Of a stretch of DNA of 64,000 bases, positions 15,954 to 64,000 are shown in pieces. Origin of the DNA: Hamadaea sp. (GTDB lineage: Bacteria; Actinomycetota; Actinomycetes; Mycobacteriales; Micromonosporaceae). Numbering within the stretch: position 1 is the first letter of the stretch; every line of letters begins with the position of its first letter. The stretch is from contig NZ_JABFVK010000026.1 in NCBI RefSeq assembly GCF_013362815.1, positions 62,001 through 126,000 of the forward strand, given 5' to 3'. The position numbers and the translations under genes are program-made. The notes under the pieces are model-generated. The model was given only the letters and a program-made list of their open reading frames with translations. It was not told the origin of the DNA and did no database searches.

Positions 15954-18443
15954 TCAGCGCGTGGTGAGGACCACGCCCGAGATCCGGTGCGTGTCGGTGT
16001 CCCCGCCAGTCCCGCCGGTGAAGCCGACCAGCACACTGCCCGGCAGGGTCACCGTTGCGTCCAGGATGGACACCCCGTCCATGGCAACCAGCACATGGCC
16101 CTGCTGTACGCGTACCACGAAATGATGCGTCGCGGACCGGAGGCTCGCGATCGCCGCCGCCGTCGCCGCGTAGCTGATGACGTCGCCCGTGCCCGCTGTC
16201 GCGACCCCTACGAAATTGCCGCTGGGGTCCGTGCCGTTCTGATGGGTGTCGAAGGTGATCGCGACGCCGGTGAGCCCGCCGTAGCCGAGGCCACCGCCCG
16301 CCGCGCCGACCCGCGCCGTGGACGCGGGATCGAGCAGCACCATCGTCATTCCGTCGCCCCCGGTCCCGCCGCCCAGGTACGCGTCGAAGCTCGCAACGAG
16401 TCCCTCGGACGCCTTGGCCGCGCCGTAGACGACGGACCCGGCGGCGAACTGCTGACCCGCCGCGGTCAGAGTGGCAGACGCCGCGGTCTTGGTCGCGGTG
16501 CCATAGAGCACCCACCCCGCGTCGCCGAATCCCGGGATCGGTGTGCCCGTCGTGACCACGACGTTGCCCACCTGGTGGGTGTCGGCGCTGCCGCCGGTGC
16601 CCGCGGTGAACGCGACGATCACCTGGCTGGGCAGAGTGACGGCGGCGCTGAGCGTCACGACGCCGTCGACCCGGACGGTCATCGTGCCGCTCGCAACGCC
16701 GACCTCATAGTGATGAGTCGCCCGCAAGGCCGGGACCGCCGTCGTCGACGTCACGTACGCGAAGGTCGATCCGGTGGCGCTCGTGGCGATCCCCATCAGA
16801 TTCCCGGCGGTGTTGGTGGCGTTGTCGAAGGTGTCCAGGGCGACCGCCGCACCGGTGAGCCCGCTGTAGCCGAGCCCGCCGCCGATACCGCCCACCCGTG
16901 CGGTGGACGCCGGATCGAGCAGAGCCAGCGTCATGCCGTCACCGCCCGTGCCGCCGCCGATCGTCGCGTCGAAACTCGCGCCCAAGCCGTTCGACGGCAC
17001 CGCGTCGGAGTAGTAGACCGAGCCGGCCGAGAAGGTCTGGGCGGCGGTCGTCAGGGTCGCGGTCGTCGCAGTCGTCGTGGCGGTGCCCTGCTTGACCCAC
17101 TTCGCGTCGGAGAAGGCGGGCAGTACGGCCGGGGTGGCGGTCTCCCCTGCCGTTCCGGTCACGACGAAGGTCGTGATCGACATCGCGGGCAGGCTCGCCG
17201 TCGCGTGGCCACCCGTGATCGTGACCGTCGCCGTCTTCACCGGCGTATGGATGGACGCGATGTCACCCGCGCTCTGCCACACGTCCGCATTTCCGGTGGC
17301 GATGCCAGTCAACGCCAGGTCGGCGGTCGTGGCGTCGCCGGTGTTGACGACCACCACGTTGTCGGCGTTTCGCGAGGCGTACGCGTAGACGGCGGAGTCG
17401 CTGGTGGACGACTGCACCACCTCCGTACCGAAGTGGCGGATACCGCCGGGCCGGCCGGTGAACATCTCCATCCCGATGTAGCTCGCCTTCGGGGTCCCGC
17501 CGGGTCCGATGAGGCCCATCGCGTTGTTCTTGTCGGCGTAGATCAGCCCTCGGGCGTTGTTCGTGATGATGGTGCCGAGCGCGTTCGCCACCCAGACGCT
17601 CGCGAAGTGTGTGTTGTTCTGCGACTCGTCGCCCCAGTTCATGTTGAACTCGCCGACTTGGATCCCGACGGACGCGTCGCCGATCCACGTGCGCAACTGC
17701 TGGATCTGGGTCGCATACCGGGTGGATTCCGCGATCGTGGCGTTGACTCCGGCCCCCGACCCGTACGCATGATAGTCGATGAAACTAGCGCGCTGTGTGC
17801 CGGTCGCGTTGGTGACGATGCCGGTGATGATGTCGTGCAGCCGCCCGTCCTCGAAGTACGCGGGCGCGGGCCCGCCGATCTCCAGCCCCGGCGTCACGGC
17901 CCGCATCGCAGCTGCGATCTGCCTGAACTTGGTCACGTAGTCGGCCGCGGAGACATCGGACTTGCTGTTGGCGTCGAACTCGTTGCCGAGGATGAACCGC
18001 TGCACGGTGTGCCCGGTGGCGTTCACGTAGTTCAGCACAGCCAGCGCGTCGGCCTGGTCGAGGTTGACGATGACGGTCGGCTGCGCCCCGATCTGCTCGA
18101 TCGTGTCCAGCCACACGTCGCCGGAGATGCTCGTGTCGCCGCTGTCCGCGCCGGTCACGATGTTTCCGTTGGCGTCCGGCTTCAAGTGGACGCGGATCGA
18201 GCCGGGAGCGAGGTTCGCCAGCGCTGCGATGTCAGCGGGATGCGTCGCGGTCGGCCCACCGTCCACCCCGAAGGTCGAGAAGGTCACGCCGAAGTTGCCC
18301 GCCGGCGACGGCGCGATCGGGCTGGTGAAGTCCACCGCGATCGTCGTGGTCGCGGCGGCCCGGGCGGGTGCCGCCGTCAGCAGTCCTGCCCCCAGCAGTA
18401 AGACGCCCGCGGTGGCGAGGGTGGTACGTGTACGCAATGCCAT
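15954..18443 (-). CDS. secreted clan-A glycoside hydrolase with two C-terminal lectin-like repeats
   Basis: A Sec signal (MALRTRTTLA, hydrophobic core, APARAA) gives a secreted 829-residue protein. Residues 35-330 look like a TIM-barrel glycosidase of the GH39/GH79 type. RFILGNEFDANS places an acid/base Glu at 155 after Asn, and IQVGEFNMNW places a nucleophile Glu at 265. A beta domain follows at about 335-425. Two homologous repeats of about 200 residues then carry GGGTGGDGMTLALLDP and HQVGNVVV in the first, GGGTGGDGMTMVLLDP in the second, resembling legume-type lectin domains. ATG 18443 starts the signal peptide; the 17 upstream residues do not fit. The substrate is probably a plant or cell-surface polysaccharide. 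Confidence 0.7.
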   Translation of the reverse strand: MALRTRTTLATAGVLLLGAGLLTAAPARAAATTTIAVDFTSPIAPSPAGNFGVTFSTFGVDGGPTATHPADIAALANLAPGSIRVHLKPDANGNIVTGADSGDTSISGDVWLDTIEQIGAQPTVIVNLDQADALAVLNYVNATGHTVQRFILGNEFDANSKSDVSAADYVTKFRQIAAAMRAVTPGLEIGGPAPAYFEDGRLHDIITGIVTNATGTQRASFIDYHAYGSGAGVNATIAESTRYATQIQQLRTWIGDASVGIQVGEFNMNWGDESQNNTHFASVWVANALGTIITNNARGLIYADKNNAMGLIGPGGTPKASYIGMEMFTGRPGGIRHFGTEVVQSSTSDSAVYAYASRNADNVVVVNTGDATTADLALTGIATGNADVWQSAGDIASIHTPVKTATVTITGGHATASLPAMSITTFVVTGTAGETATPAVLPAFSDAKWVKQGTATTTATTATLTTAAQTFSAGSVYYSDAVPSNGLGASFDATIGGGTGGDGMTLALLDPASTARVGGIGGGLGYSGLTGAAVALDTFDNATNTAGNLMGIATSATGSTFAYVTSTTAVPALRATHHYEVGVASGTMTVRVDGVVTLSAAVTLPSQVIVAFTAGTGGSADTHQVGNVVVTTGTPIPGFGDAGWVLYGTATKTAASATLTAAGQQFAAGSVVYGAAKASEGLVASFDAYLGGGTGGDGMTMVLLDPASTARVGAAGGGLGYGGLTGVAITFDTHQNGTDPSGNFVGVATAGTGDVISYAATAAAIASLRSATHHFVVRVQQGHVLVAMDGVSILDATVTLPGSVLVGFTGGTGGDTDTHRISGVVLTTR

Positions 18444-18697
18444 GGTGGGACATGATCGCAGCGTCCCTCCATTTCGGACAATATCGGTGATCACGTCCGG
18501 CGGTTACGTTCTCGTGAACTCCAGCCGAGCGTTGATACGCCTACGGCTGGCCGCCTTCCGGCTTATCCTCGGCGCCGGCTCGTCGCCCCCGAACAGGTCA
18601 TCCATCGCGATCGCGCCGGTCAAGAGCACTGAACGCGGCTGATGACGGTGCCGTTGCTCCGGCCTCGATGGGTCTGCTGGTCAGCGTGGGCGGAGAT

Positions 18698-18748: not shown

Positions 18749-21478
18749 TCAGGCGAGGGTTGCCTGGAGGATCGTCTGCTCGACGCGGTTGCCGGCCGCG
18801 TCCACCGCCACGACGCGTACGCTCAGCGCACCCGTCCCGGTCACTTGCGGCGTGACGGCGTAACCGTCGCGGGTAGTGTGCACGGTTGCCGGTGTCCAAT
18901 GTGTGCCGTCGTCGGTGCTCGTCCACACCTGCACTCCGGTGATCTGGGGCGCCTGCGAGTCCTCGTGGTACGCCTCGACGGTGAACCCTCGCGCCGGCGC
19001 GTCCCCGAGGCGGTACGCGATGAACACGAGCGGATCGGCCGCACACGGGTCGGTCGACTCCAAGACGAGGGTGCCGATGCAGATCGCCCCCGTGCCTGGG
19101 CGGTTCTCTGTGGGGGCGGCCGAGGTGAAGTCCCACTGGGTGTGCACCTCGCCGTAGGACGGCAGGCGATAGTCGGTCGTCAGGCGGTACGCCGAATTCT
19201 CCGCTGGCAGCGCGTACGCGACCAGCCCGGCGACCGAGCTCTGGGGCATCTCCACGCCATCGCGGTAGAGGTGCGCCGAGGCGGCGTCGTAGCCGTAGAG
19301 CCCGCTGGACAGGGAACGGTCGGATTCCAGGTAGCCGATGGGGTAGAACGTGTTCCCCTGCCGGCAGTAGGAGCACAGTTGCACCGGGTTCAGCGTCGTC
19401 CCCCAGCTGTCCGGCTGGGCGGCGAGCACGTCTGGCACTGCGGCCGGACTGCCGGGTACGAGGGGGCGGGCCGCCCATTCCTGCGTACGCCGGCTGGTGT
19501 CGGCGTAGACCCGCAGGGAAGTCTGGAACAGGCCGGGGCTTTGGAGGTCGTCCTGGTGGACGAGTTCGGGTGAGATCGGTCCGGTGTACTCGATCCGGGT
19601 TGTGGGTGCCGCGAGCGGCTCGGTGACTCCGCCGGTGAGGTACTCGCCGGGCTGGAAGGCCGAGGTGTTCCGGCTGTCCAGCACGTCGTCCCCTGTGTCG
19701 GTCCGGTACACGGCCCGGGTCGGCGTGAGGTCGGCGGACCGGACGGTCAACCGCTGGTCGGCCGAGATCTCGCCCTGCTCGTAGAACTTCAGGTCGTAGA
19801 TCTCCGTGGCCGTGCCTGCGTCGGCGTACGCGATGCTCACCGAGCCTTTCGCCAGCCGGGCCCGCAGGGCGGCGGCGTCGGACGGTGTCACCGAGACGAA
19901 CGGCATTGGCGGGGTCGGGTCCACACCAAGGATCCAGTCGCCGCGCAACGGCAGCGAGCAGAACTCTCCCGGCGTCGCCGACGGCGTCTGCGGGTCCATG
20001 AGGACGCCGACGGCACCGGCGCGGATGGCGTTCTGCAGTTGCCAGTCCATCACCGCGCCCAGCGAGCCGCCATAGCACTGCAGGCCGGTGCTGTTGGCGA
20101 CGGTCAGCAGGACGAGCTTGCCGCGCGCGTCCACCTTGGCGAAGTCCGCCTCGGTCCCCTCCCCCGCCGCGACCACGCCGGCGGTCCCGCGACCGGCCAG
20201 CCGATACATCGGGTAGCCGGGGAAGGAGGCGAACGTGGGATAGATCGGGTGCAGGGCTTGGCCGCCCTTGCCGGCGATCGCCATGGTCACCGGGATGGCC
20301 CCACCCACCCAGCCGAGCTCCAGCCGGAACTGCCCGGTCGAGACCCGGTCGGTCGGCGTCACCCAGTACTGGTGGTTGCCGTAGGAGCTGAACATCAGGC
20401 TGGCGGCGTAACGTCCGTCGGGCAGCGTACGGGTGTCCTGCAGCATCGCGTTGTAGGTGCCGGTCGGACGCGGTGTCTGCACGGAGATCTGCCGGGCCTG
20501 CGCCACGTCGAAGGACACGTCGGTGGCCCCGGCGACGATCACCTCCGGCTTTTCCAGCCAGACGTTCTGGTCCAGCGCGTCGTCGTAGAACGACACCCAG
20601 CCGCTGACGGCGTACGTGCCCGACGGGACGTTGGCCTGCAATCCGTACGTGGTGCACGGGTCGACGTCGGCACAGCCGAGCAGGTTCGCCGTGAAGCTCT
20701 GCCCGGCGGCCGGACCCGTGACGCCCAGCAGGGTCACGCCCATCACGCACATCGTCGTCCGCATCCCGTCGCAGGCGAAGACCTGGTGGTCCTTGTCCGC
20801 GGCCAGATGCACAGTCACCGTCACGGGATAGGTCGCGGAGTACGCGGGGCTCGTCGCGTACCCGAGGATGTGATCTTTGAGCCAGATGCGCGCGATGCCG
20901 GAGCCGAGCCGTCCGCCGGGCGCGAGCGCGGACCAGAAGGAAGCGGCCTGGCCCAGGTCGAGGGCGAGTTCGGCGGTGTGGTCGGCGGTTGTCTTCGTGA
21001 TGGTCGCGCCCGGGAAGCGGGTGTTCGGGTCCGCGGTGCTCGCGTATTGGACGATCACGGGGAGGCGGGCGTCCTTGGCCGTGTAACCGTGGGCGGCGAG
21101 CCAGGTGACGTCGAACAGCCCGGGGTCGACCGCCGCGCCGAGCCGGGCGACGTCGGCGGGCAGCGCGCTGATCCGCTGTACGCCGCCGGCCGACCCGGTC
21201 GCGGTGATCTTGATCGCGGGGCCGCCGGGGCGCGGCTCGGCGGTGGCGGTGACCCGTGCACCGGCCGCGGTGAGCTTGCCGGCGGTCCTCAGCCGCACGG
21301 AATCGCCGGTGATGAGCGGTACGGTGACCGGCTGTACCGCTTCCAGCTGTTGCGGCGCGCCAGATCGGGCGGCCGCGGCGGGCGTGCCGCTGATCGTCAT
21401 GGCGGTGACGTTCGCCAGCATCGCCGACGCGACCAGAGCGACGCCCACCCTCCTCATGGCTTGTCTGCGGTGGTTCAT
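18749..21478 (-). CDS. secreted PA-domain companion protein of the sedolisin
   Basis: The 909-residue product has a signal peptide (MRRVGVALVASAMLANVTAM, then TPAAAA). It is beta-rich throughout. A protease-associated (PA) domain sits around residues 390-500 (FAKVDARGKLVLLTVANSTG then AGAVGVLMDPQT). Near residue 700 is the motif CSYCRQGNTFYP, shared with the paralog at 60578. No subtilase or other peptidase catalytic triad is visible, so it may be a companion rather than a protease. ATG 21478 has AAGGAG seven bases upstream and overlaps the stop of the sedolisin gene as ATGA, which indicates translational coupling. The terminator follows at 18698. Confidence 0.8.
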   Translation of the reverse strand: MNHRRQAMRRVGVALVASAMLANVTAMTISGTPAAAARSGAPQQLEAVQPVTVPLITGDSVRLRTAGKLTAAGARVTATAEPRPGGPAIKITATGSAGGVQRISALPADVARLGAAVDPGLFDVTWLAAHGYTAKDARLPVIVQYASTADPNTRFPGATITKTTADHTAELALDLGQAASFWSALAPGGRLGSGIARIWLKDHILGYATSPAYSATYPVTVTVHLAADKDHQVFACDGMRTTMCVMGVTLLGVTGPAAGQSFTANLLGCADVDPCTTYGLQANVPSGTYAVSGWVSFYDDALDQNVWLEKPEVIVAGATDVSFDVAQARQISVQTPRPTGTYNAMLQDTRTLPDGRYAASLMFSSYGNHQYWVTPTDRVSTGQFRLELGWVGGAIPVTMAIAGKGGQALHPIYPTFASFPGYPMYRLAGRGTAGVVAAGEGTEADFAKVDARGKLVLLTVANSTGLQCYGGSLGAVMDWQLQNAIRAGAVGVLMDPQTPSATPGEFCSLPLRGDWILGVDPTPPMPFVSVTPSDAAALRARLAKGSVSIAYADAGTATEIYDLKFYEQGEISADQRLTVRSADLTPTRAVYRTDTGDDVLDSRNTSAFQPGEYLTGGVTEPLAAPTTRIEYTGPISPELVHQDDLQSPGLFQTSLRVYADTSRRTQEWAARPLVPGSPAAVPDVLAAQPDSWGTTLNPVQLCSYCRQGNTFYPIGYLESDRSLSSGLYGYDAASAHLYRDGVEMPQSSVAGLVAYALPAENSAYRLTTDYRLPSYGEVHTQWDFTSAAPTENRPGTGAICIGTLVLESTDPCAADPLVFIAYRLGDAPARGFTVEAYHEDSQAPQITGVQVWTSTDDGTHWTPATVHTTRDGYAVTPQVTGTGALSVRVVAVDAAGNRVEQTILQATLA

Positions 21479-23991
21479 CGGGCCGCTCCTTCCGTGAGCG
21501 TCCAGTCCTTGCGGGTGACCGTGTCCGGCGCGGCCGTGATCGGGCCCGACGCCGTCGTGTAGCCCTGCGCGCCGGCGGTGTAGGTTCCCGTGCCGACCGC
21601 GAAGAGCCAGTAGAAGCCGTGCGGCAACCCCGGATCGTCGGATGACGCGCTCAGCGCCCGGCTCGTCGGCCCGGCGATGGTCGCGTTGTCGATTCCTGAT
21701 CCGTCCGGGTTCTGCACGACCCCGGCGATCAATCCGCCCGATGCGGGCACGCAGGTGTGCGTACCGAGGAAGACGTCGTCGACGCCCCACCACCAGCCGT
21801 CGCGGGCCTCGTAGCGGAACCGGACCTTGACCTGCGTACGCCCCGCGGCCTGGGGCAGGGCAACGGTTTGCGCCCCGAGCACGTTGGTGTCGGCCGCGCG
21901 CCAGACGGTCGTCCATCGGCGGCCGTTGTCCACGCTGAGGTCGACGGTCGCATGCTGCCGGGCGGCCTTGGCGTAGTACGCGCTGTCGAACCGCAGTTCC
22001 GGCGCGGATTGGCCGGCCAGGTTCACGGCCGGTGACGTCAGGTACGCGTCCCCACTGCCCGACGCAAGCGCGAAGGTGTCGTCGCCGCCGAGCGGAGGCG
22101 ACCGGTCGGCCGGGTTGTCGAACACCCAGCCCTGCGCCTTCCACCCGGAACGGTTCGCGAAACCGGTCTCGTAGCCGTTCCACCGGTAGCCCGGCGCGGT
22201 GCACGCCGTCAGGTCGGCCGAGATGCGTACGTCGTGCCGCAGGTCGGCCCCGCCGAGGTGCACCGGAGTCGCGTCGGCGGTGTAGCCGGGATAGACGGCT
22301 GCCACGTGGACGGTGTAGTCCCGGTCGTTGACCAGCCGGACCGCGTACGCGCCGGTGAACGGGTCGGTGTAGACGGCGTCACCGGGGTAGCCGTCGATCG
22401 TGATCCGGGCGTAGACGGGCCAGCCGTGGCCGCTGCCGTCCACGACGGTTCCCGCGAGCATGCTGCTGTCGACCGCACGTAGCTGCGCGTCCGCGGCCGC
22501 CGTCTGTCCTTCCGCGACGCTCACCTGCCGGCCGGAAACCGTGCTGTAGCCGTACTTGTCGAAGGTCAGCGTGTAGGAGCCGACGAGCGCGCCGTCGATC
22601 GCGTACGTGCCGTCGCCTGCGGTCGTGGTCGCGTACGCGCCGGGGTCGGCTTTCACGGTGACTCCCGGAAGCGGCTTGCCGTCCCAGTCCGTCACGCGGC
22701 CCGCGATGCGCCCGTGCGGGCCGCCGGACAGCGCACCGACGCCGTTCGGGCTGCCCAGGCCGGTCGGCCCGTCCCAGCCCGGCCCGGCCTGGCACAGCTG
22801 CGTGCCACAGTCGGCCACCGCGCCGTCGGTCACGTCGAACAGGTGCGCCGCCTGCTGCGGGTCGTGGTAGGGGAACGTCACCGGGTCGCTGTCCGCGGCC
22901 GGGCGGCCGGCCAGCGCGTACATGGCCGCCGTCAGCGGTGCCGACAGGCTCGTCCCGCCGATCTGCAGCCAGCCGCCGTTCGTCGTGTCATAGACCCCCA
23001 GACCCGTCGCCGGGTCCGCGACGGCCGAGAGGTCGGCGATCGCACGCTGGTCGCATCCCGTGTTCACACCGTTCTGGTACGCGGGCTTCGGCTCGTAGAT
23101 CGAGCAGCCCGACCCGGCTCCGGGGCCGCCGGCGGGGCTGCCCCAGGCGGCCTCGTGCCAGCCGCGTGCGGAGTCGTCGCGGGTCAGGCTGGTTCCGCCG
23201 ACCGCGACGACGGCCGGGCTGGACGCCGGGTAGTTCACGACGTAGCCGGTGTCCCCGGTGGACGCGGTGATGACGGTCCCCGGATGCGTGTAGTGCTCGT
23301 CGATCTCCAGCTCCTGCCCGAACTCCCCCGGTACGCCGTAGGAGTTCGACACGAAGCCGGCGCCGAGGCGTACCGCGGTGTCCACGGCGGCCGCGAGGTC
23401 GTCGACCGAGGCGGTGTCGCCCTCGACGAGCAGAATGTGGCAGTTCGGACAGGCGGCTGAGACGGCGTCGAGGTCGAGCGCGGTCTCCAGCCCCCAGCCC
23501 GGGTCGTCCGGCGGGTACGCCGTCCCGCCCCGCTGGTCGACCTTGCGGAAACAGCCGTTGGCGGTGGTGCACGCGGGCAGCCCGTAGTGCGCCCGGAACA
23601 CGGCGAGGTCTTCCTCGGCGTGGGAGTTGCCGAGGGCGTCGACGATCGCCACGGTCTGCCCCTGCCCGGCGTCTGGCAGCTTGTACGCGTCGCGGATGTC
23701 CGCCGGTCCCAGCGCGGTCGCGGGCGGACCGTCGGCTGCGGCGGCCCGGAGACTGTGGTCGGCGCCGGTGAGCACCATGGCGTAGCACTGCGCGGTCCGC
23801 GGGGCGGTGCGCTGGTTGCAACCGGCCGGGGTGTAGCGGTCGCGCACGCTCGGATCAGCGGACAGGCCCGCGGTTCCGTGGTTCCCACCGGGTGCCGCGG
23901 TGGCGATGGCGGAGGCGGCCGCCGAGGTCAGAGCGAAGGTCAGGGTCGCCACGGCGACGATCCATCGCCGCGCGGAGAGGGGTGGTGACAT
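21475..23991 (-). CDS. secreted S53-family (sedolisin) serine-carboxyl peptidase with C-terminal accessory domains
   Basis: From ATG 23991 (GAAAGG upstream) the product is 838 residues with a signal peptide. A short N-terminal stretch precedes a sedolisin core from about residue 95 to 450. Catalytic motifs are visible: GLETALDLDAV (Glu169, Asp173), the oxyanion Asp247 in STGDTGY, and Ser348 in GGTSLSAP. PGWDGPTGLGSPNG is the late calcium-site motif. The long activation prodomain of classical sedolisins appears absent. Two carboxypeptidase-regulatory-like beta domains and an immune-inhibitor-A-like jelly roll (VDLSVDNGRRW) follow. It ends overlapping the PA-domain gene. It is likely an extracellular protease. 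Confidence 0.88.
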   Translation of the reverse strand: MSPPLSARRWIVAVATLTFALTSAAASAIATAAPGGNHGTAGLSADPSVRDRYTPAGCNQRTAPRTAQCYAMVLTGADHSLRAAAADGPPATALGPADIRDAYKLPDAGQGQTVAIVDALGNSHAEEDLAVFRAHYGLPACTTANGCFRKVDQRGGTAYPPDDPGWGLETALDLDAVSAACPNCHILLVEGDTASVDDLAAAVDTAVRLGAGFVSNSYGVPGEFGQELEIDEHYTHPGTVITASTGDTGYVVNYPASSPAVVAVGGTSLTRDDSARGWHEAAWGSPAGGPGAGSGCSIYEPKPAYQNGVNTGCDQRAIADLSAVADPATGLGVYDTTNGGWLQIGGTSLSAPLTAAMYALAGRPAADSDPVTFPYHDPQQAAHLFDVTDGAVADCGTQLCQAGPGWDGPTGLGSPNGVGALSGGPHGRIAGRVTDWDGKPLPGVTVKADPGAYATTTAGDGTYAIDGALVGSYTLTFDKYGYSTVSGRQVSVAEGQTAAADAQLRAVDSSMLAGTVVDGSGHGWPVYARITIDGYPGDAVYTDPFTGAYAVRLVNDRDYTVHVAAVYPGYTADATPVHLGGADLRHDVRISADLTACTAPGYRWNGYETGFANRSGWKAQGWVFDNPADRSPPLGGDDTFALASGSGDAYLTSPAVNLAGQSAPELRFDSAYYAKAARQHATVDLSVDNGRRWTTVWRAADTNVLGAQTVALPQAAGRTQVKVRFRYEARDGWWWGVDDVFLGTHTCVPASGGLIAGVVQNPDGSGIDNATIAGPTSRALSASSDDPGLPHGFYWLFAVGTGTYTAGAQGYTTASGPITAAPDTVTRKDWTLTEGAAR

Positions 23992-24256
23992 GGGGGTACG
24001 CCTTTCGTCAGCCATTACAGGGGCTCGTACTCGTCCTCGTGCTCGCCCTCGTCCACGAAATCCACATCGGACACCGGTGGATCCGACGCGGGTGTCTGCG
24101 GGGCGGGTGCGTCGGCGAGTGGCGGCGGTGAACCGTCCGCTGGTTCGTCGTCGGTGCTCACGCACTGAGTCTTGGGCCGCGATGCGCAGGTGACGAGACG
24201 GCAGATGCCGGGTTTAATTCCGCCGCTGCCCCGAAAAATTAGGCGCGACAGCCCTT

Positions 24257-27211
24257 CTACGCAGGCCCGAGAAGATCTTGTTCCACGGCCGCGACTGCCA
24301 GCGCCGTACGCGACGACACCCGCAGTTTCCGCATCGCCGACTCGATGTGCCCGCCGACCGTCTTCACCGACAGCGTGAGCGCCTCGGCGATCTGCGGGTT
24401 CGTCTGCCCGGCCGCCACCAGGCGGACGACCTCCACCTCGCGCGGTGACAACCGATCCCCGTACCCAGGCCGCCCCCGGCGACGTGGTTCGGCAGACGTC
24501 TTCCCCGCGACCGTCTTCCCCACGACGGTCGACGCCGTGTTCCGCAGCCGCGCCGCGTCCGCCGAAGCGCCCAGCGCGCCCAAGCCTTCTGCGGCCTCTG
24601 CCAGCAGCGCCAGCCCGGCCGACCGCAACCCGGAGGGCCCACGATCGAGGAGGCAGGTCGCGTGTCGCTCCCGGGCCAGCAAGGCGTCATAGGGCCGCGC
24701 TGCGATCGCGTACGCGTCGGCTGCGGCGGCGAACGCATCGGGGTCGGGTCGCAGGATCGCCTCGCCGAGGCGGAGTGCCGCCGCCGCGCCTGGGGCGTCG
24801 TCGGGTATCCCGGCCGCGTACAGCGCCAGCAGCCGCTCGGCCTCCGTCGACCGGCCCGCGGCGACAAGGGCGTCGAGGCGTACCGGAAGCAGCTCGGCGG
24901 CCCACAGCCAAAGCCCTGTTTCCTCGATCATCTCGGCGGCCTCGCCGGAGATCCGCAGCGCCTCGTCGACTTCCCCGGAACGCAGCAGCAGCCGGGCGGT
25001 GGCGGCCATCGGCTCGACGAGGTGATCGACCGCGCCCGCTTGCTCGGCCAGCTCGATGGCGACCGCGAACTGCGCCCGCGCGGTCTCCGCGTCGCCGGTC
25101 GCCGCGGTCAGCTGTCCGATCACGACAGTGGCCTCGCTGCGCGTGAGCGGCTGCAACGCCGGGTCACCGGCCAACGCGACCACCCGGGGCAGCAAGCCCG
25201 CCCAGTCCTCGCCGGTGAACCAGTCCACGTGCGCCCGGGTGGTGACGATCATGTCATGCAGTAGGAGATGTTCGTGCTGCTCCGCCAGAATGCGCGCGCG
25301 GTCGAGACGGGCTCGGGCATCGGCGTACCTGCCCCAGGTGAGGGCGGCGTGCCCGAGGTTGAGCTGCCCGGCCGTCACCAGCGACGCGAGATCAGGTGTG
25401 GCCGGCGCGTCCGGAATCTCAGCCGCCGCCGCCCAGCCCGCCGGGTCGCCCAAGGTCAGCCGCGCGGTCACGCTCGCGATCACCAGCCGCAGCCGGTCCG
25501 GCGGAGCCAACGCGTGGGTCAGCGGCGCCGCGCGTTCCAGCCACCGGCGGTGCATGCTCGCCGGCACGCCGCGTCCGCGCGGCCGGGCCAGCAGCATCAT
25601 CGCCCGCGCCGCCTCGGCCGGCCGGTCCACCAGGCCCGGAATCGCCGCCTCCAGCGCCGCCCGGCCCGCGTCGTACTCCTGCAGATAGAAGAGCACCTCG
25701 CCGGACAACGCGAGCGCCTCCGCCCGGTCCCCGGCCGTGTCCGCGCCCTCTCCCTTCTGCAGTACGCGGGCCAGCTCCCGATAGCGGGCCGGATCGGTGA
25801 CGCTGCTCAACGGGATCATCCGGACGAGCCGCAGCACCACCGGCACCGCAAGGTCGGCGTGCAGCAACAGATCGAGCAGGAGCGCCACCGCCCCGTCCTC
25901 GTCACCGGCGGCGAGTGTGCGCTCCGCGGCCCGCTCGGCGTACTGGCACCACGACGCGGTGTTCCCGGCTTCACGATGGTGGCGGGCGAGGCGGAGCAGC
26001 GGCTGCGGCTCGACAGATTCGAGCAGCCGCGCGGCCCGGGCATGCGCTCGGCGACGCCACGGAACCGCGATCGCGTCGTGCACCGCCCGCGCCGCGAGCT
26101 CATGCCGGTACGCGAGCCGCCCCCGTTCGTCGGCCACGAGCAGGCCGGAGTCGAGCACCGCCAGTGTCGCGTCGAGAGCGTCCTCCTCCGACAGTCCGGC
26201 GACCTCCGTGAGGACGGCTTCCGTCGCGGGCGCGGACAGGACCGCTGCCGCGTACAAGAGCTGGCGAGCCTGCGGATCGAGCCGGTCGACGCGCTCGCCG
26301 ACCGCCTCCCGGACCGTCGTGGACACCGCGATGCCGGTGAGCCGGCGGCGAACCCAGCGCCCGCCACGGCGCACGAGATCGGCCCGCGCGTGCATGAGCC
26401 GGACCGCTTCCTCGACCGACAGCGGCACCCCCTCCGTACGCTCATGCACGAACGAGGCGAACCGGTGCGAGACCGGCTCCCCGCCGAGCATCGAGGAGAT
26501 CAGCCGGGCGGTGTCGGCGACGTCGAGCGGCGCAAGCTCGATCCGCAGCATCGCGCGCCCGGCCAGCCGGCGCAGCAGTGAGTCGGCGGGCACATCCTCG
26601 GGCCGATAGCTGACGACCATGGCGACTTCGGCGGCCGGTCGGGCAGCCAGGAACATCAGGAATTCCAGCGTCGCCGGATCGGCCCAGTGGACGTCCTCCA
26701 CCACCAGCACCCGTACGCCCAACGCCACCAGCAGCTCAGCCAGCGCACGCAGCAGGCGATGCCGGGCCGCCAGCGGATCCGCGACGGGCTCGGGAGCGGG
26801 CGGCAGGAGATCGGTCCACTCGGGGAACACGGGCCGCAGCGCGCCGGCGAGCGGCGTCAGCGCCAGCCCCTGCGGCGTATCGACCGCCTGCCGAAGTGCA
26901 TCCACGATGGTGCCGAGCGTCAACGGCTCCCGGAACGGCGGGCAGACCGCGTGCAGCACGTGCGGCCGGTGCTCCTGATCCGCGCTGTGCGGCCCGTCAG
27001 GTCTCCGCGCCTCATCGGGTCGGTCCGGGCCGAGGGCAGCGCGGATCAGCCGCGACTTTCCGACCCCGGCCTCGCCCTCGACCAGCGCGACCCCCGAACC
27101 ACTTACCGCATCGCCACGCGGAATGCCCTCGTGGATGAACGCTCGTAGCGCCGCCAGCTCGCGGTCGCGGCCGACGAGCCGGGGCGCGGCGATCGGAGGG
27201 GAGCCCGCCAT
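24257..27211 (-). CDS. LAL-type LuxR-family transcriptional regulator with AAA ATPase domain
   Basis: This 984-residue protein has an N-terminal ATPase with Walker A GEAGVGKS (residues 46-53) and Walker B-like VLVVEDVHWAD. A long TPR-like helical middle part follows. The C-terminal LuxR helix-turn-helix reads RLSPREVEVVRLVAAGQTNPQI and TVGGHIESAMRKL. This is the large ATP-binding LuxR (MalT-like) architecture; such proteins activate nearby genes on binding an inducer. It is the first gene upstream of the sedolisin/PA pair on the same strand, so it is the natural candidate regulator of it. The start MAGSPPIAAPRLVGRDREL fits the family. Confidence 0.92.
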   Translation of the reverse strand: MAGSPPIAAPRLVGRDRELAALRAFIHEGIPRGDAVSGSGVALVEGEAGVGKSRLIRAALGPDRPDEARRPDGPHSADQEHRPHVLHAVCPPFREPLTLGTIVDALRQAVDTPQGLALTPLAGALRPVFPEWTDLLPPAPEPVADPLAARHRLLRALAELLVALGVRVLVVEDVHWADPATLEFLMFLAARPAAEVAMVVSYRPEDVPADSLLRRLAGRAMLRIELAPLDVADTARLISSMLGGEPVSHRFASFVHERTEGVPLSVEEAVRLMHARADLVRRGGRWVRRRLTGIAVSTTVREAVGERVDRLDPQARQLLYAAAVLSAPATEAVLTEVAGLSEEDALDATLAVLDSGLLVADERGRLAYRHELAARAVHDAIAVPWRRRAHARAARLLESVEPQPLLRLARHHREAGNTASWCQYAERAAERTLAAGDEDGAVALLLDLLLHADLAVPVVLRLVRMIPLSSVTDPARYRELARVLQKGEGADTAGDRAEALALSGEVLFYLQEYDAGRAALEAAIPGLVDRPAEAARAMMLLARPRGRGVPASMHRRWLERAAPLTHALAPPDRLRLVIASVTARLTLGDPAGWAAAAEIPDAPATPDLASLVTAGQLNLGHAALTWGRYADARARLDRARILAEQHEHLLLHDMIVTTRAHVDWFTGEDWAGLLPRVVALAGDPALQPLTRSEATVVIGQLTAATGDAETARAQFAVAIELAEQAGAVDHLVEPMAATARLLLRSGEVDEALRISGEAAEMIEETGLWLWAAELLPVRLDALVAAGRSTEAERLLALYAAGIPDDAPGAAAALRLGEAILRPDPDAFAAAADAYAIAARPYDALLARERHATCLLDRGPSGLRSAGLALLAEAAEGLGALGASADAARLRNTASTVVGKTVAGKTSAEPRRRGRPGYGDRLSPREVEVVRLVAAGQTNPQIAEALTLSVKTVGGHIESAMRKLRVSSRTALAVAAVEQDLLGPA

Positions 27212-27961: not shown

Positions 27962-30553
27962 TCACCTGGCAGCGCGTTCGGAGTAGCTCAGCCGTTGTTG
28001 CAGCGGATGTTCCGCGCCAAACCCCATCGTCGACATTCCCGCGGCTGCCTCGGCTGTGAACGCAGCTGCCTGATCGCCATCTGGCGTGGTTATCGCGAGC
28101 CCGACCGCCGACCGGACCTGGTCGTATAGCAGTCCCGCAGCATGGGCGATCTCGTGCGCAGCGGTGAAGTCGGCGATCGCCGACTCGACGGCGCCGACGT
28201 CGAGGTGCGCGTAGGCGCGGTCGTTGAGGCAGCGGCATTGCAGTTGAGGGTCGGACATTTCTCGGGCGAGGGCGATCGCCTGCGCGTACGCGGACGTGGC
28301 CTCGGCGGTGTTTCCTGACCGCGCTTGGTGTAGTGCGGTCAAGGCAAGCCCAATGGCTTCGAACTGCTGGTCGCCGGTCTCGCGGGTCAGCGCCAGGCCC
28401 TGCTCAAGATAGTATGTGGACTCGGGGTCGCGGGTATGGAGGCCGACTTCGGCGAGAGCCGTGCAGGCGACGCCCTGAGTATTCAGGTCGCCGAGATCTT
28501 GGGAGATGCTCAGGGCCCGACGAGCAGCACGCGCAGCTTCTACGAAGTCGGCTTGGTAGATGTGCATTGTGGCAAGGTTGGTGAGCAGTATCGCGAGGTT
28601 GCGGGTTTCGCCGATGTCCTCATAAATTGCCATCGCCCGGCGACGGCTGCGCAGCGCCTGCGCGAAGTCGCCCCGGATTTCCCACACGCACGCAAGGTTT
28701 GCAAGGCTTACGGCCTCGCCCCGGTGGTCGCCGAGTTGCCGGTAAAGCATGCCTGCGGCCTGATAGCAGGCGATGGCATCGTCGGCACGGCCGCTCATGT
28801 CGTATGCGACGCCGAGGTTACCCATCGCGGTGGCGCGGCCGTGTGCGTCGCCGACGTCGGTCCAAACCGATAGCGCTCGGCTCAACTGATCTGCGGCCTG
28901 GTCGTATCGGCCGATGTTGTTGAGCCCGACCCCTAGGCTGCTACGCACCTCCGCCTCGCCCTGGCGGTCGCGTCCGTGCATGCAGGCCTCGAGAGCCTTC
29001 TCGTGAGTCGCCAGCCACCGACTCGTCCGGCCACGTAGTTTCAGATAGGGCGACATGATGACAGCCAATTGCCATCCATATTGGTAACCGCCGGTAATCG
29101 CCGCGTTCGCAGCCATGTCGCATGCAGCCGTGATGCCATCGCGTTCGAGGTCGAGCCAAGCCATCGCGTGGTCGTAGCCGTCGAATTCTGCTACGGACGC
29201 CGCGGTGGGCAGGGGGACGGGGCGCCGGCGCGGGCGGATGACGCTCATCGCCGAGCTGGCTGTGAGAAGGTAGCGATCCAGTATCCGCTGCACTGCTGAC
29301 TGGCGTCCCTGACGATCGTCGTCACAGTCAAGGAGTTCAGAAGCGTAGGCCTTGAGCAAGTCGTGCAATGCATACCGGTCAGCGGTCGGCCGTTCCACGA
29401 GGTGCGCACGCTCGAGTGTTTCCAGCCGTGCGGCGGTCCGGTCAACCTGTGCGCCATCGAGCGCTGCGGCCGTAGCGGTGTCGAAGCTTGTCGTGGGGAT
29501 GAGGCTAAGCAGGCGAAAGAGTCGTGCACAGTCCGGCGGGAGGACTTGATACGACCAGGACAGTGCGGCTCGGACGTCGGCGAGCGGATCGCCGTCAGCG
29601 GTCAGCAGGTCAAGGGTTCGGGCTTGAAGTTCGGCAATCAGCTCCGCGATGGCCACGTTGGGATAGCGGGCGATGCGCTCGGCGACCAGTCGTAGCGCCA
29701 GCGGGAGCCCGCTGCACAGCTTGTTGATCGCGGCTGCGTGGTCGTCCAAGCGCTGCGGCTCGATCAGCCGGGGCAGCAGCGCGGCGGCTTCGTCGACAGT
29801 GAACGGCTGCAGTTGCAGGCGCCGGGCACCATCGCGGGCGACGAGTCCCTGCATGCTGTCGCGGCTAGTGATCAGTAACGTCGCGGGCCCCGGGAGGACC
29901 AAGTGCCGCAGCTGCTCCGTCGAGCGAGCGTTGTCGAGCATCAGCAGGAGACGTTTCCTTGACAGTTCGGTCCGGCATGCGCTCCAAAGGTCTTCGCCTT
30001 CGGCGGTGTTCGATGTCTTGGTAATGGTATGCAAGACGCATTCAGTCAGGTCGTCGGCAGTCATCGGAGCTGCGCCGTCGTACCCGTGCAGATTGATGTA
30101 GAAGGTGCCATCGGGGAACCGTGCGGCGAAGCGATGCGCCCAGTGAAGGGCCAGTGATGTCTTGCCGACACCGGCGGTTCCCGTGATCACGATTACCCGA
30201 TGGTGCTTCAGCGCGTTCAGGCTGGCTAGAGCGTCTTCGCGGCCGACGAAATCCGGTGGTGCGGGAGGGAGGTTAGCCGGGATTGGCCGGTCACTGTTCG
30301 CGCGCTCCCATACATCGGCCCATCGGCGGGCCTCAGCCGGGGGCACCCCCAGGGCGATGATGATCGAATCGAGGACGTCGATAGGCATTTTCGTGGCGCC
30401 GGTGAGGTAGCTCGACAGACTGCTTCGTGGAATCCCGGTCAAGGACTCCAACTTTCGCAGGGACACCCTGGCGCTTCGTTGCCCTCGCGCCGCCTGGCTG
30501 CGCAGCCGATCCAGCGCCCGCAGCAACTCGGGCACGGTGGTCACCTCATCCAT
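27962..30553 (-). CDS. HTH / NB-ARC / TPR regulator (STAND ATPase)
   Basis: The 863-residue protein begins with an Xre-like helix-turn-helix (residues 30-75: SVR-type LESLTGIPRSSLSSYL). An NB-ARC ATPase follows with Walker A GTAGVGKTS near residue 125, RLLLMLDNA as Walker B and the GLPLALRLVAERI motif. About eight tetratricopeptide repeats occupy residues 470-860 (for example AMGNLGVAYDMSGRADDAIA). This is the STAND class, which couples ligand sensing by repeats to DNA binding or signalling. The start MDEVTTVPELLRAL fits. Its 5' end overlaps a transposase-like remnant. No target genes are evident nearby. Confidence 0.88.
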   Translation of the reverse strand: MDEVTTVPELLRALDRLRSQAARGQRSARVSLRKLESLTGIPRSSLSSYLTGATKMPIDVLDSIIIALGVPPAEARRWADVWERANSDRPIPANLPPAPPDFVGREDALASLNALKHHRVIVITGTAGVGKTSLALHWAHRFAARFPDGTFYINLHGYDGAAPMTADDLTECVLHTITKTSNTAEGEDLWSACRTELSRKRLLLMLDNARSTEQLRHLVLPGPATLLITSRDSMQGLVARDGARRLQLQPFTVDEAAALLPRLIEPQRLDDHAAAINKLCSGLPLALRLVAERIARYPNVAIAELIAELQARTLDLLTADGDPLADVRAALSWSYQVLPPDCARLFRLLSLIPTTSFDTATAAALDGAQVDRTAARLETLERAHLVERPTADRYALHDLLKAYASELLDCDDDRQGRQSAVQRILDRYLLTASSAMSVIRPRRRPVPLPTAASVAEFDGYDHAMAWLDLERDGITAACDMAANAAITGGYQYGWQLAVIMSPYLKLRGRTSRWLATHEKALEACMHGRDRQGEAEVRSSLGVGLNNIGRYDQAADQLSRALSVWTDVGDAHGRATAMGNLGVAYDMSGRADDAIACYQAAGMLYRQLGDHRGEAVSLANLACVWEIRGDFAQALRSRRRAMAIYEDIGETRNLAILLTNLATMHIYQADFVEAARAARRALSISQDLGDLNTQGVACTALAEVGLHTRDPESTYYLEQGLALTRETGDQQFEAIGLALTALHQARSGNTAEATSAYAQAIALAREMSDPQLQCRCLNDRAYAHLDVGAVESAIADFTAAHEIAHAAGLLYDQVRSAVGLAITTPDGDQAAAFTAEAAAGMSTMGFGAEHPLQQRLSYSERAAR

Positions 30554-60577: not shown

Positions 60578-63454
60578 TCACTTGATCGCGTAAGCGCCGA
60601 GCACCGTCTGCTCGATGGTGCTGCCGTCGAGATCCGACGCCTTGACCCGGATGCTGACCGTCCCGTTGGTCTCCGCCACTCGCGGCACGCGGTAGGTCAC
60701 GGCGAAATCCCCGCCGCCCTGGGCCGTCGCCTTCACCGGCTGCCAGGTGGTCCCGCCGTCAAAGCTGATCGACACCTCCAGGTCCGCGACGGTCGCGCTT
60801 TCGACGCTCTGGTGATACGCCGAAAGCCTGAGTTCGTGCTTGCCGCCGCCGGTGACCGCCCCGGTCGCGTCGAGCCCGGCGTCGTATCGCAGGAACAGCA
60901 GCGACTCGGACCGGCACAGGACGCGCGAACCTTGTGGACACCAGGTTCCCCGCTGCGGAGCTTGCGCCGCCGGGGCCCCCGAGGTGAAGCCCCACTTCGT
61001 CGTGGTGGCTCCATCGCTGGTGGATCCGGTCAACTCGTAGCGTTTCGCCTCCTCGGGCAGGTCGTAGACGGCACCCCAGAGGAAATCGTTGCCCTGCGCC
61101 AGTTCCTGGCCGTCGGCGTACATGTGCAGGTTCTCCGGCGCGAAGATGTACGCCCCGTTGACGATGCTCGGGCTCGCCCCGCTGACCAAGTGCAGGAGCG
61201 GATAGAAGGTGTTGCCCTGACGGCAGAACGAGCAGATGGTGACGCTGTTGTAGTACTCGCCGCCGTCGAAGTCGCCGGGCCGGGCTTCGAAGACCCGGGC
61301 CGACAGCTCCGGCGCGCCGGGCACCAGCGGTCCGGTCCCCCACTGCTGGGCCCGGATCGGGCCGGCCCGGTCGACCACCTCGACGGTGAGCCGGCCCGGT
61401 TCGTCGCGCTGGACCCGGACGAGATCGGGCGAGACCGGCCCCTGGTAGGTGGTGTAACGGACGCCCTCGGTGACACCGACGAGCATCACGCCGCCCGTCG
61501 CGTTCTCGTTCCTGCGGAACGCCGAATAGGTCATCGTGTCGCGTACGCCGGGCGAACCGGCCAGCGTCGTCTGCACCTCGGCGAGCTGGCTGTCGGTGAT
61601 CTTCGTATGCAGGGCGGCCGGGATCTGCCCTTCCTGGTACAGATGCAGGTTGTAGACGTACGGGCTGATCTGCGACGACCCGGTCACCTCGATCTTGACC
61701 GGCCCGGTACGCATCATCCCAAGCAGCTGCTCCGCCTCGGCGTGGGTGACCGCGGCGTACGGGAGCTCGGGGCGGCCCTGCGAGGGCTGAGTCCAGAAGG
61801 CGGGCAGGATCGGCAGGTAGTTGCACACCATGGTGGGCCACGGCCCGTTGCTGGCGACCGGATCGACGAGTACGCCGACAGCCCCGGCCGCCTTGGCCCG
61901 GTCGAGGGCCGGTGTGCCGAGGTCGCAGATCCCGCCGAGTTTGTCGTCGTCGATCTGCAGCAGCACGAGTTTGCCCCGCGCGTCGATCTTGGCGAGGTCT
62001 TCGGCCCGGCCGAGGCCGCCGTCCACCAGTTCGACGGTCTGCTGCCCAGTGAAGTGCGCGAAGGACCGATCGACCTGATAGATGTTGCCGGCCTGAATCG
62101 CCGCCAACGGCCGCTTGGTTGGCTTGACGACCCTCATGCGTACGTAGGGCTCGCCGAGGATCCAGTTCTGGCCGAGGTGGAAACTGCCCACCGTGATCGG
62201 AGCGCTCGGCACCGCCCAGTAGTTGGCGTGCCCGTACATCGTGAACACCATCGAGACGCCGCCGACTCCGTTGGCGAAGCTGCGATAGGTCAACAGGGTG
62301 CCGTTGTAGATCTCGCTCGGCCGGGGCGTCTCCACGGTCAGCCGCTGAGCCGAGTCACCGTCGGTCGTGATGGTGATGTTCCGGTCGACGGTGAACTCCG
62401 GGATCTCCACGGTGAAGATCTGGTCGAGGCCCGCGAGCCGGAAGGTCATCAAGCCGCCCGCCTCGTAGACGCCGGCCGGCACCTGGAACTTCGCCTCGTA
62501 TCCCGTGCACGGGTTCACCGTCACGCACCGCAGCTCCTGCAGGTCGAACGGCGTACCGACCGCCGACCCGCCGACCTGCGCCAAGGTGGGTTCGGCGAAC
62601 AGGCACATGGTCGCCGTCATGGCACCGCACAACTGTGGCTCCGCGCCGCTGGGTGCGTCGACGACCCAGGTGACGTCGAACAACGGCTGACCGGTGTCGT
62701 TCTGCGGCGCCATGATCGGGGAACGATGACCGGTCGGCCAGAGACCGAGTACGCCGTGCTCCAACCGGGGCGCGACACCGCGTACGAGATAGTCGGTGAG
62801 CGCTCCGGCCGAGCCGGACGGTGCGATCGCCGCCCAGAACTTGGCCGCTTGACCGGCGTCGACGCGCACGTCGACCGTTCCGGCCTCCTGGTGTGCGGCC
62901 GCGACGGATGCGCCGGGCAGGACGGACGCGGCTTGGGTCAGCGCCGCGACGTCCATCCCGGAACCGAACTTGACCGTCATCGACAGCGACGTGTCACCGG
63001 CCGCCGACCGTTTCGCCAGCCACAGCACGTCGAAGGTGTTGCGGTCGACGACACCGGCTTCGACCAGTCCCCCGGCGTCGGCGGGCAGCGCGATCACGCT
63101 GGTGGTCGCCGAGTCCGCGCCGAACTTGGCTCGGACGTCGACGGCGGGAATCGTGCCGTCGGCGCGTTGAGCCGCCGTGGCGGTGACGGTGTAGCGGCTG
63201 CCGGTCTGTTGCAGGGCGACTCGATCACCGGTGATCAGCGTCGTCGCGTACGCCGTCGCGGTGAGCCCCGGCAGCGACAGCCCGCCTTCCGTGGTTGCCG
63301 CCGTGCCGGTGGGGCTGGTGACGGCCGGATCTGCCGTGGCGGCGGTAGCGGCGCTTAAGCCGAGGAGGACGGCCGCGGATGCGACCACAAGTCTGCGGTA
63401 TGCCCGGATCACGGGACGGCTCCTTAGGCTCGTCGGGTTCGTCATGTCAGCCAC
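60578..63454 (-). CDS. secreted PA-domain companion protein, paralog of the one at 18749
   Basis: GTG 63454 (958 residues) or ATG 63445 (955) starts a signal peptide, RRLVVASAAVLLGLSAATAA. It shares the architecture of the 18749 gene: N-terminal beta repeats, a mid PA-like domain (LAKIDARGKLVLLQIDDDKL then AAGAVGVLVDP) and the motif CSFCRQGNTFYP, compared with CSYCRQGNTFYP there. Identity is clear but modest, so duplication is old. Again, no protease triad is seen. Its start lies within the last eight bases of the sedolisin-like gene, so they are coupled. A terminator follows at 60537. Confidence 0.8.
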   Translation of the reverse strand: MADMTNPTSLRSRPVIRAYRRLVVASAAVLLGLSAATAATADPAVTSPTGTAATTEGGLSLPGLTATAYATTLITGDRVALQQTGSRYTVTATAAQRADGTIPAVDVRAKFGADSATTSVIALPADAGGLVEAGVVDRNTFDVLWLAKRSAAGDTSLSMTVKFGSGMDVAALTQAASVLPGASVAAAHQEAGTVDVRVDAGQAAKFWAAIAPSGSAGALTDYLVRGVAPRLEHGVLGLWPTGHRSPIMAPQNDTGQPLFDVTWVVDAPSGAEPQLCGAMTATMCLFAEPTLAQVGGSAVGTPFDLQELRCVTVNPCTGYEAKFQVPAGVYEAGGLMTFRLAGLDQIFTVEIPEFTVDRNITITTDGDSAQRLTVETPRPSEIYNGTLLTYRSFANGVGGVSMVFTMYGHANYWAVPSAPITVGSFHLGQNWILGEPYVRMRVVKPTKRPLAAIQAGNIYQVDRSFAHFTGQQTVELVDGGLGRAEDLAKIDARGKLVLLQIDDDKLGGICDLGTPALDRAKAAGAVGVLVDPVASNGPWPTMVCNYLPILPAFWTQPSQGRPELPYAAVTHAEAEQLLGMMRTGPVKIEVTGSSQISPYVYNLHLYQEGQIPAALHTKITDSQLAEVQTTLAGSPGVRDTMTYSAFRRNENATGGVMLVGVTEGVRYTTYQGPVSPDLVRVQRDEPGRLTVEVVDRAGPIRAQQWGTGPLVPGAPELSARVFEARPGDFDGGEYYNSVTICSFCRQGNTFYPLLHLVSGASPSIVNGAYIFAPENLHMYADGQELAQGNDFLWGAVYDLPEEAKRYELTGSTSDGATTTKWGFTSGAPAAQAPQRGTWCPQGSRVLCRSESLLFLRYDAGLDATGAVTGGGKHELRLSAYHQSVESATVADLEVSISFDGGTTWQPVKATAQGGGDFAVTYRVPRVAETNGTVSIRVKASDLDGSTIEQTVLGAYAIK

Positions 63455-64000
63455 CGGCCCTGGTCAGGACCCAGTCGTGGGTGACGATCGCGTTCTTGAC
63501 CACCGGAACGGTCGCGGTGGCGCTCGTGTAGGTGGCGGAACTGGCGGTGAGTTCCGTCGGCCCGGTCGCACTGCTGAACAGCCAGTACAGGCCGTCGCCG
63601 ACGTTCGGGTCGACGGGCGTCGTCACCGTGGTGGCGGACTCCTGCGGACGGGCGGTACGCGCGACGGTCGCGTACACCGGCGCACCGGTGTTGTCCTGGG
63701 CGTAGCCGACGACGAGCCCGCCGTCGGTCACGACACAGGTGTGCGTACCGACGAAGATGTCGTCGAGAGCCCACCAATTGCCGTTGCGGCCCTGGTAATG
63801 GAACCGGACTCGGACGTCGGAGCGATGCGCGGCCTGCGGCAGCGCGACGGTGACGCGGCCGAAGGCGGTGCCGGTGGTCTTCTGCCAGACGTTCGTCCAG
63901 GTCTTGCCGCCGTCGACGCTGACCTCCACGTCGGCCCGCTGGCTGCTCGAACCGTAATACGCAGTGTCGAAGCCGAGCTGCGGACTGTCCTGTTGCGACA
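63447..64000 (-). CDS. C-terminal part of a sedolisin-pair protein, cut by the right edge
   Basis: The frame runs off the right edge. The visible 184 residues match the C-terminal end of the S53 protein at 21475: DTAYYGSSSQRADVEVSVDGG, VTVALPQAAHRSDVRVRFHY, WWALDDIFVGTHTCVV, GLYWLFSSATGPTELTASS and DWVLTRAGG at the end. The sedolisin core itself lies outside the window, so peptidase activity is inferred from the paralogous arrangement. It overlaps the PA-domain gene. Confidence 0.75.
   Translation of the reverse strand, partial: SQQDSPQLGFDTAYYGSSSQRADVEVSVDGGKTWTNVWQKTTGTAFGRVTVALPQAAHRSDVRVRFHYQGRNGNWWALDDIFVGTHTCVVTDGGLVVGYAQDNTGAPVYATVARTARPQESATTVTTPVDPNVGDGLYWLFSSATGPTELTASSATYTSATATVPVVKNAIVTHDWVLTRAGG

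Follow-up and report, generated by a model that had tools for sequence, protein, structure and literature searches.

Gene organization of the protease-partner locus

A 64,000-nucleotide stretch of a Hamadaea sp. genome (contig NZ_JABFVK010000026.1, positions 62,001 to 126,000; hereafter the window) encodes on its minus strand a sedolisin-type (S53) protease and, directly downstream, a large protein without a catalytic domain, termed here the partner. Gene order and sequence comparison indicate that both belong to a four-gene cassette of regulator, acidic peptide, protease and partner. The original prediction, made from the DNA letters alone, had described a two-gene unit, which is too narrow because the regulator and peptide gene also belong to it.

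The S53 gene occupies 21475–24015 (minus strand), with an ATG start at 24015 or 23991. Its protein matches kumamolisin-As (1sio) at 7.4e-23 by phmmer, and the catalytic domain spans residues 98–430 (22726–23724). When aligned to 1sio, its residues Glu177, Asp181, Asp255 and Ser356 each meet an identical residue there; in this family they are the catalytic Glu, Asp and Ser and the oxyanion Asp. All four are invariant across the seven aligned partner-linked S53 proteins. The domain begins near residue 98, the stretch ahead of it including the export signal, and Pfam gives no match at E≤1 to the activation pro-domain Pro-kuma_activ in the window protein. Residues 432–846 (21478–22722) form a C-terminal module of CarboxypepD_reg domains and a MAM/reelin-like beta domain; these are weak matches in the window protein and above cut-off in relatives.

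The partner gene (18749–21478, minus strand) encodes 909 residues, is S8-derived and appears to be exported, as judged by inspecting its N-terminus. Its ATG (21478–21476) is overlapped by the S53 stop TGA (21477–21475), and AAGGAG lies upstream of the start, so the predicted ATGA junction at 21475–21478, with an S53 enzyme carrying all four active-site residues, is confirmed. A 4-base gene overlap is by itself frequent in bacteria; it is the conserved linkage across 15 of 15 distinct partner genes, not the overlap alone, that exceeds chance.

A second, paralogous cassette lies at the right edge of the window. Its partner (CSFCRQGNTFYP) is encoded at 60578–63412 (minus strand), the GTG behind AAGGAG being taken as its start, and is preceded by the C-terminal module of an S8-type protease (63447–64000, minus strand) in place of S53; this protease gene extends beyond the window edge, and the regulator and most of the protease lie past it.

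Linkage of the partner to secreted proteases

Homologous loci were collected from overlapping sets of genomes: 200 and 354 from the family, 394 from the class and 396 from the phylum. Across all genome searches the best 2–8 candidates per genome were scored (2–4 in these sets), and all counts are therefore lower bounds. At least 15 distinct partner genes were recovered; they come from 11 genomes that represent 6 genera and 2 families. A contig end truncates one of them and a frameshift interrupts another; the remaining 13 are complete and have open frames. They are not independent cassettes, as the partner piece of genome G080 is 96% identical to that of G000; a scan of named genomes found only two Hamadaea loci.

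Every one of the 15 partners stands directly behind a protease, seven times of S53 and eight times of S8 type, starting from a 4-base overlap with the protease stop codon to 61 bases after it. Where several starts were possible, the one behind a likely ribosome site was taken. The expectation of conserved linkage across genera is thus borne out as a tight linkage of a non-catalytic protein, while a pairing with S53 as such is not: an S53-specific association was rejected. Homologues unlinked to S53 make up 8 of the 15, although all are linked to some protease. Coupled translation, which had also been proposed, fits the four genomes of this genus, whose S53 cassettes have the ATGA form (it is also one possible start in locus L039); in S8-type cassettes the partner starts 2 to 61 bases downstream or its start is uncertain. 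Two further candidates, L082 and L083, were discarded as truncated S8 relatives.

Origin of the partner from a subtilase

No family in Pfam or NCBIfam matches the partner above cut-off. A search of the same genome with the partner returned the full-length paralogue in the window, as well as partially matching S8 proteases whose open frames span 1226–1286 amino acids. The comparison with these intact relatives was made with our own, non-curated profiles, which delimit an N-part, the S8 domain and a C-part. Sixteen of the 17 intact S8 relatives run from the N-part through the S8 domain (about 256–267 residues) and a spacer of 165–205 residues to the C-part, so that 443–499 residues separate the outer parts; for the seventeenth, L034, the alignment covers just a later stretch of the C-part. 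The corresponding gap is 16–23 residues in 15 of 15 partner rows. (The set of 17 used for spacing includes L034 without L007, and the set used for tree, motif and cysteines includes L007 without L034. The partner cut by a contig end, L033, is outside the partner alignment, and two of the rows in trees and cysteine counts, those of the window and of L010 for the second cassette, represent one gene.)

The catalytic domain is wholly missing. Neither Pfam nor our own profiles detect an S8 or S53 catalytic domain in the window partner, the S8 profile matches none of the partner frames, and no hidden triad was found, in agreement with the predicted absence of a catalytic triad. At the deletion site lies a partner-specific segment of about 60 residues (220–279; 20642–20821, minus strand) with cysteines at 236, 244, 269 and 275. 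Two of these are present in 15 of 15 partner rows and the other two in 14 of 15; the intact S8 relatives have them in 0 of 17.

The retained domains can be followed on both sides of this joint. Upstream, residues 49–206 (20861–21334, minus strand) form a propeptide-like domain, which profile comparison equates with the corresponding region of intact S8 relatives and which aligns with their propeptide region through to the strand before the catalytic domain. Its structural model has a predicted local distance difference test score (pLDDT) of 87. Residues 137–206 superpose on the Tk-subtilisin and BPN' propeptides at a middling Z of about 6, below the first row of the same comparison, the unrelated NapD at Z 6.9. 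Foldseek gave no match for this domain at 0.001, and S8 propeptides emerged only in a VIA second look. Downstream, residues 394–558 (19805–20299, minus strand) are a protease-associated (PA) domain: the model of this region matches the PA domains of an aminopeptidase and of C5a-peptidase at Z about 12, and a profile of 11 partners finds the PA-bearing chains 8jmw (4.5e-6), a TfR1 construct (7e-4) and the aminopeptidase 2ek8 (8e-4). Pfam itself gives no PA match in the partner at E≤1. Whole-protein Foldseek returned nothing trusted beyond PA.

The motif CSYCRQGNTFYP at residues 702–713 (19340–19375, minus strand), which the original prediction considered distinctive, was rejected as a hallmark of the partner, since 12 of 17 intact S8 relatives have its CxxCR core in the equivalent position; the core is probably ancestral, as judged from this distribution.

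The propeptide and post-catalytic domains of a large actinobacterial S8 group are thus recognizable in the partner by profile, the propeptide fold (Z about 6) being weak alone. On these sequence comparisons the partner is a subtilase relative that has kept its propeptide-like and post-catalytic domains and from which the catalytic block and spacer are gone. The gene is under purifying selection. Its ratio of nonsynonymous to synonymous substitution rates (dN/dS) is 0.28–0.36 in three Hamadaea pairs, and that of the paralogue is 0.26–0.33, also in three pairs.

A shared C-terminal module and exchange of catalytic domains

Partner-linked proteases of both catalytic types carry the same C-terminal module of CarboxypepD_reg and MAM/reelin-like domains. 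The module is common, being present in at least 135 of 200 family genomes at E≤1e-40. Among the module matches listed, frames are at least 1300 amino acids long, apart from a single frame of 1114 that lies at a contig end and from twelve below 1000. Eleven of these twelve are accompanied by a partner. The twelfth, in genome G070, had been considered a short protease without a partner and was set aside as a long gene broken by a frameshift. Kelch repeats were found by Pfam in both long module proteins scanned (n = 2). No partner gene was seen beside long S8 or S53 proteases with the extension in the loci read. One locus with the module, L128 (G070:C1:4881000-4900900), is a tandem array of four S53-plus-module proteases, one of them broken by a frameshift.

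In a module tree of 49 rows, a branch with support 99/98 parts the partner-linked copies from the long copies and the broken gene, with S53 and S8 enzymes on both sides. Because this split disregards catalytic type, the tree indicates at least one swap of the catalytic domain, during which module and partner remained a pair. Partner and module distances also correlate beyond what the regulator accounts for, to a modest degree (partial r 0.48, 13 loci, 0 of 2000 permutations).

The regulator and the acidic peptide

Upstream of the S53 gene, at 24257–27211 (minus strand), lies a LAL-type LuxR regulator in which Pfam recognizes an AAA_16 ATPase, weak TPR and a C-terminal LuxR helix-turn-helix (HTH) domain; the TPR_12 match in the window regulator is only 0.003, below its cut-off. 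All 15 cassettes have a regulator homologue ahead of the protease, contig ends cutting two of them. Between regulator and protease, at 24015–24161 (minus strand), an unannotated gene with a GTG start would encode a small acidic peptide of 48 residues ending in DEYEPL-COOH. Its TAA shares one base with the in-frame upstream ATG of the S53 gene.

A small open frame occupies this position in 15 of 15 cassettes, with 39–56 residues when the likeliest starts are used. The strict carboxyl end [YWF]xP[LVI] is found in 14 of the 15, the remaining peptide (L042) ending in WVLL. Eight peptides were measured; their net charge is –7 to –15, the longest hydrophobic run is 5, and none has the N-terminal signal sequence of an exported precursor. 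No family match was found in NCBIfam (five scanned) or Pfam (four scanned). The strict motif follows the regulator far more often than it turns up in chance controls. For regulators with at least 37.9% identity to that of the window, 34 of 38 loci have it within 450 bases after the regulator, as does 1 of 11 loci below this value; the controls give 134 hits among 14800 random windows (0.9%) and 5 among 691 stretches that follow other long frames (0.7%).

In relatives within the class, the gene after this regulator-peptide pair encodes an S8 protease of the family to which the partner belongs, at 15 loci (one cut before the C-part), and such regulator-peptide-intact S8 loci occur in families f22, f19 and f1. 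The partner therefore looks like the original protease of the cassette. At L175, the pair stands before an S8 protein that has module-like domains. Downstream of the regulators of L171 and L177 there is no peptide and no S8 protease, L171 being cut after 3 kb. That the peptide is an obligate part is weakened by L090, where a regulator and S8 protease are present and no peptide was found; the strict motif is also absent in L082 and L088. The peptide of L086, an S8 locus, has 35 residues.

Some loci show further features around the peptide gene. Paired, opposed LAL regulators, each with its own peptide, are present in genomes G258 (L172/L173, about 200 bases apart) and G240 (L168/L169, about 960 bases apart), and in both an S8 gene then follows where the contig allows. 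Perfect inverted repeats occur 5' of the peptide gene in L039, L078, L080 and L010, for example TGGGGCATCTGCCCCA in L039 and TCCCTCACCTGAGGGA in L078 and L080, with the related GGCATCTGCC in Hamadaea loci. They could be regulator sites; a role as a common operator was rejected, as they are present in some loci only and their sequence is not shared.

Proposed history and competing explanations

The explanation that we somewhat favour is that the partner is the remnant of a subtilase once belonging to the regulator cassette and now serves as a secreted, non-catalytic accessory subunit of the neighbouring protease. It starts from the observed gene order, domain loss, PA fold, co-occurrence and selection. 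With the regulator and peptide in the same conserved cassette, the pair points to a regulated extracellular protease made of two parts. In the simplest history that the compared sequences suggest, the regulator-peptide-S8 arrangement came first, and the partner is the old S8 enzyme after a newcomer took over catalysis. The starting state would be a large secreted subtilase, the output of a regulator-peptide-protease cassette. Comparison with intact relatives suggests that it lost its S8 catalytic domain and the following spacer, a short cysteine-bearing segment taking their place, though the order of events is conjectural. A second secreted protease of S8 or S53 type, with its own C-terminal module, would have been inserted between the peptide gene and the remnant and have taken over cutting. 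Both proteins would be exported, and the partner would most likely dock on the C-terminal module of the protease, where its PA and beta-sandwich domains would probably bind substrate or anchor the enzyme on a surface. The partner would then do in trans what the long C-terminal extension does in cis in single-chain relatives. The propeptide-like domain may, more doubtfully, add folding help or inhibition.

Several observations weigh against this explanation. The partner tree gives no firm single origin: one change is recovered in 10% of bootstraps, and L039 and L042 are unplaced. The regulator tree needs at least two changes to account for the partner cassettes, and therefore either regulators were also exchanged or the event happened twice. 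Raw correlations among partner, module and regulator are all 0.97–0.98, so that co-inheritance explains most of the congruence. The full-length partner model is poor (pLDDT 64, predicted template modelling score 0.41), and Kelch repeats in the long proteins were checked by Pfam in two only. Partner fragments without a protease in the stretch read also exist, at L081 and L091 in two genomes of one genus; they suggest a joint loss of partner and protease.

The partner might instead be a trans-acting propeptide, its S8-propeptide-like domain folding or inhibiting the neighbouring protease in the manner of a stand-alone propeptide inhibitor, which we consider unlikely. The homology of this domain to S8 propeptides, by profile and weakly by fold, would suit such a role, as would the missing Pro-kuma_activ match in the window S53 enzyme. 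S53 and S8 enzymes use different propeptide families, however, and the partner goes with both. Little pro-domain room is also no peculiarity of partnered enzymes: in partnerless long S53 proteins the S53 domain begins 92–139 residues into the stop-to-stop frame, and the partnered S8-type proteases, with 190–256 residues of frame ahead of their own catalytic domain, have room for a propeptide of their own. Both points weaken the idea that the partner replaces a missing sedolisin pro-domain in trans. About 700 further residues have moreover been kept, with purifying selection on the whole partner. Adjacent propeptide-like inhibitors do exist, SUB1-ProM of Plasmodium being one (PMC6993865).

An independent secreted binding or cell-wall protein, merely co-transcribed under the same regulator, is as unlikely as a trans-acting propeptide. 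The regulator alone could hold the genes together, given that a regulator of this kind also heads loci of intact S8 relatives, with no second protease in between. Yet no full-length partner without a neighbouring protease was found (15 of 15 linked), and partner presence tracks the protease C-terminal module and the absence of the long C-terminal extension. Decay of an S8 protease into a pseudogene is disfavoured and very improbable. The catalytic domain is indeed gone, two genomes hold protease-less fragments (L081, L091) and the L080 partner is frameshifted; dN/dS of 0.26–0.36 and open frames in the 13 other complete copies speak for a maintained gene, and distant copies share the same deletion and the new cysteines (two in 15 of 15 rows, two in 14 of 15).

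If the accessory-subunit explanation is correct, an enzyme has lost its whole catalytic domain and has yet been kept as the partner of another enzyme, and S8 and S53 catalytic domains have been exchanged on a constant C-terminal module. A wider model, which we offer as speculative and would doubt more than believe, extends it to the whole cassette. The LAL-type ATPase regulator would recognize the free carboxyl end of the acidic peptide (..(Y/W)xPL-COOH) and thereby control the adjacent secreted protease. A split of this protease is supposed for some Micromonosporaceae and for one genome from a different family: its cutting subunit, S8 or S53, would be interchangeable, and the former protease, stripped of catalysis, would be the fixed subunit that binds substrate or wall. 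The cassette would then be an unnamed actinobacterial signalling system. It would offer a handle on how actinomycetes control secreted proteases, in the form of a conserved regulator and a short unannotated peptide with a strongly conserved carboxyl end.

Other genes in the window

Downstream of the partner, at 15954–18494, lies a gene whose product is probably secreted and combines a GH39-like region (below cut-off) with legume-lectin-like domains. On the other side of the cassette, 27962–30553 encodes an HTH/NB-ARC/TPR protein with below-cut-off similarity to the HaaT and AfsR families; among the cassette loci compared, a relative of it was seen only near L079.

Comparison with known systems

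A literature search (full-text search, with titles and abstract openings read; subscription journals mostly outside it) found no description of the S53/S8-partner pair or of the acidic peptide. To the large actinobacterial S8 peptidases, built of propeptide, S8 domain, spacer, PA and C-terminal domains, the partner is directly homologous outside the catalytic block; unlike them, it has neither S8 domain nor spacer, and it carries four additional cysteines. Long S8 and S53 proteases with a module and Kelch-type extension have the catalytic types and the module in common with the cassette, as single chains there and with a separate partner gene here.

For the regulatory half, the RRNPP systems invite comparison. 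In PlcR-PapR and NprR-NprX the peptide gene adjoins the regulator gene, and NprR controls a secreted protease; an exported precursor with an N-terminal signal sequence is typical of this group, some members lacking one. These systems combine a TPR-type regulator with a small peptide (PMC3601992). The peptide of the cassette likewise sits after a regulator and before a secreted protease, whereas its regulator is a LuxR-type AAA ATPase and the peptide has no signal sequence.

Proteases co-encoded with catalytically dead relatives are exemplified by the Csp proteins of Clostridioides difficile, in which CspA and CspC have kept the subtilase fold and lost active-site residues. Both are termed pseudoproteases, are co-encoded with the active subtilisin-like CspB and control it (PMC5241399). 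The likeness lies in an active protease co-encoded with a catalytically dead subtilase relative. The partner differs in that its catalytic domain is entirely gone, where a Csp-type protein would have a subtilase fold with a degenerate triad, in that its active neighbour can be an S53 enzyme, and in that the proteins look secreted. Stand-alone propeptide inhibitors of the I9 type, such as SUB1-ProM and TgMIC5, are small propeptide-like proteins; in the case of SUB1-ProM, the propeptide-like domain is encoded next to a subtilase (PMC6993865). Such inhibitors consist of the propeptide fold only, whereas the partner has 909 residues, several further domains including PA and beta domains, and an S53 or S8 neighbour. 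The Csp proteins and the stand-alone propeptide inhibitors are the closest known systems in logic, and the cassette stands beside both as a member of neither.

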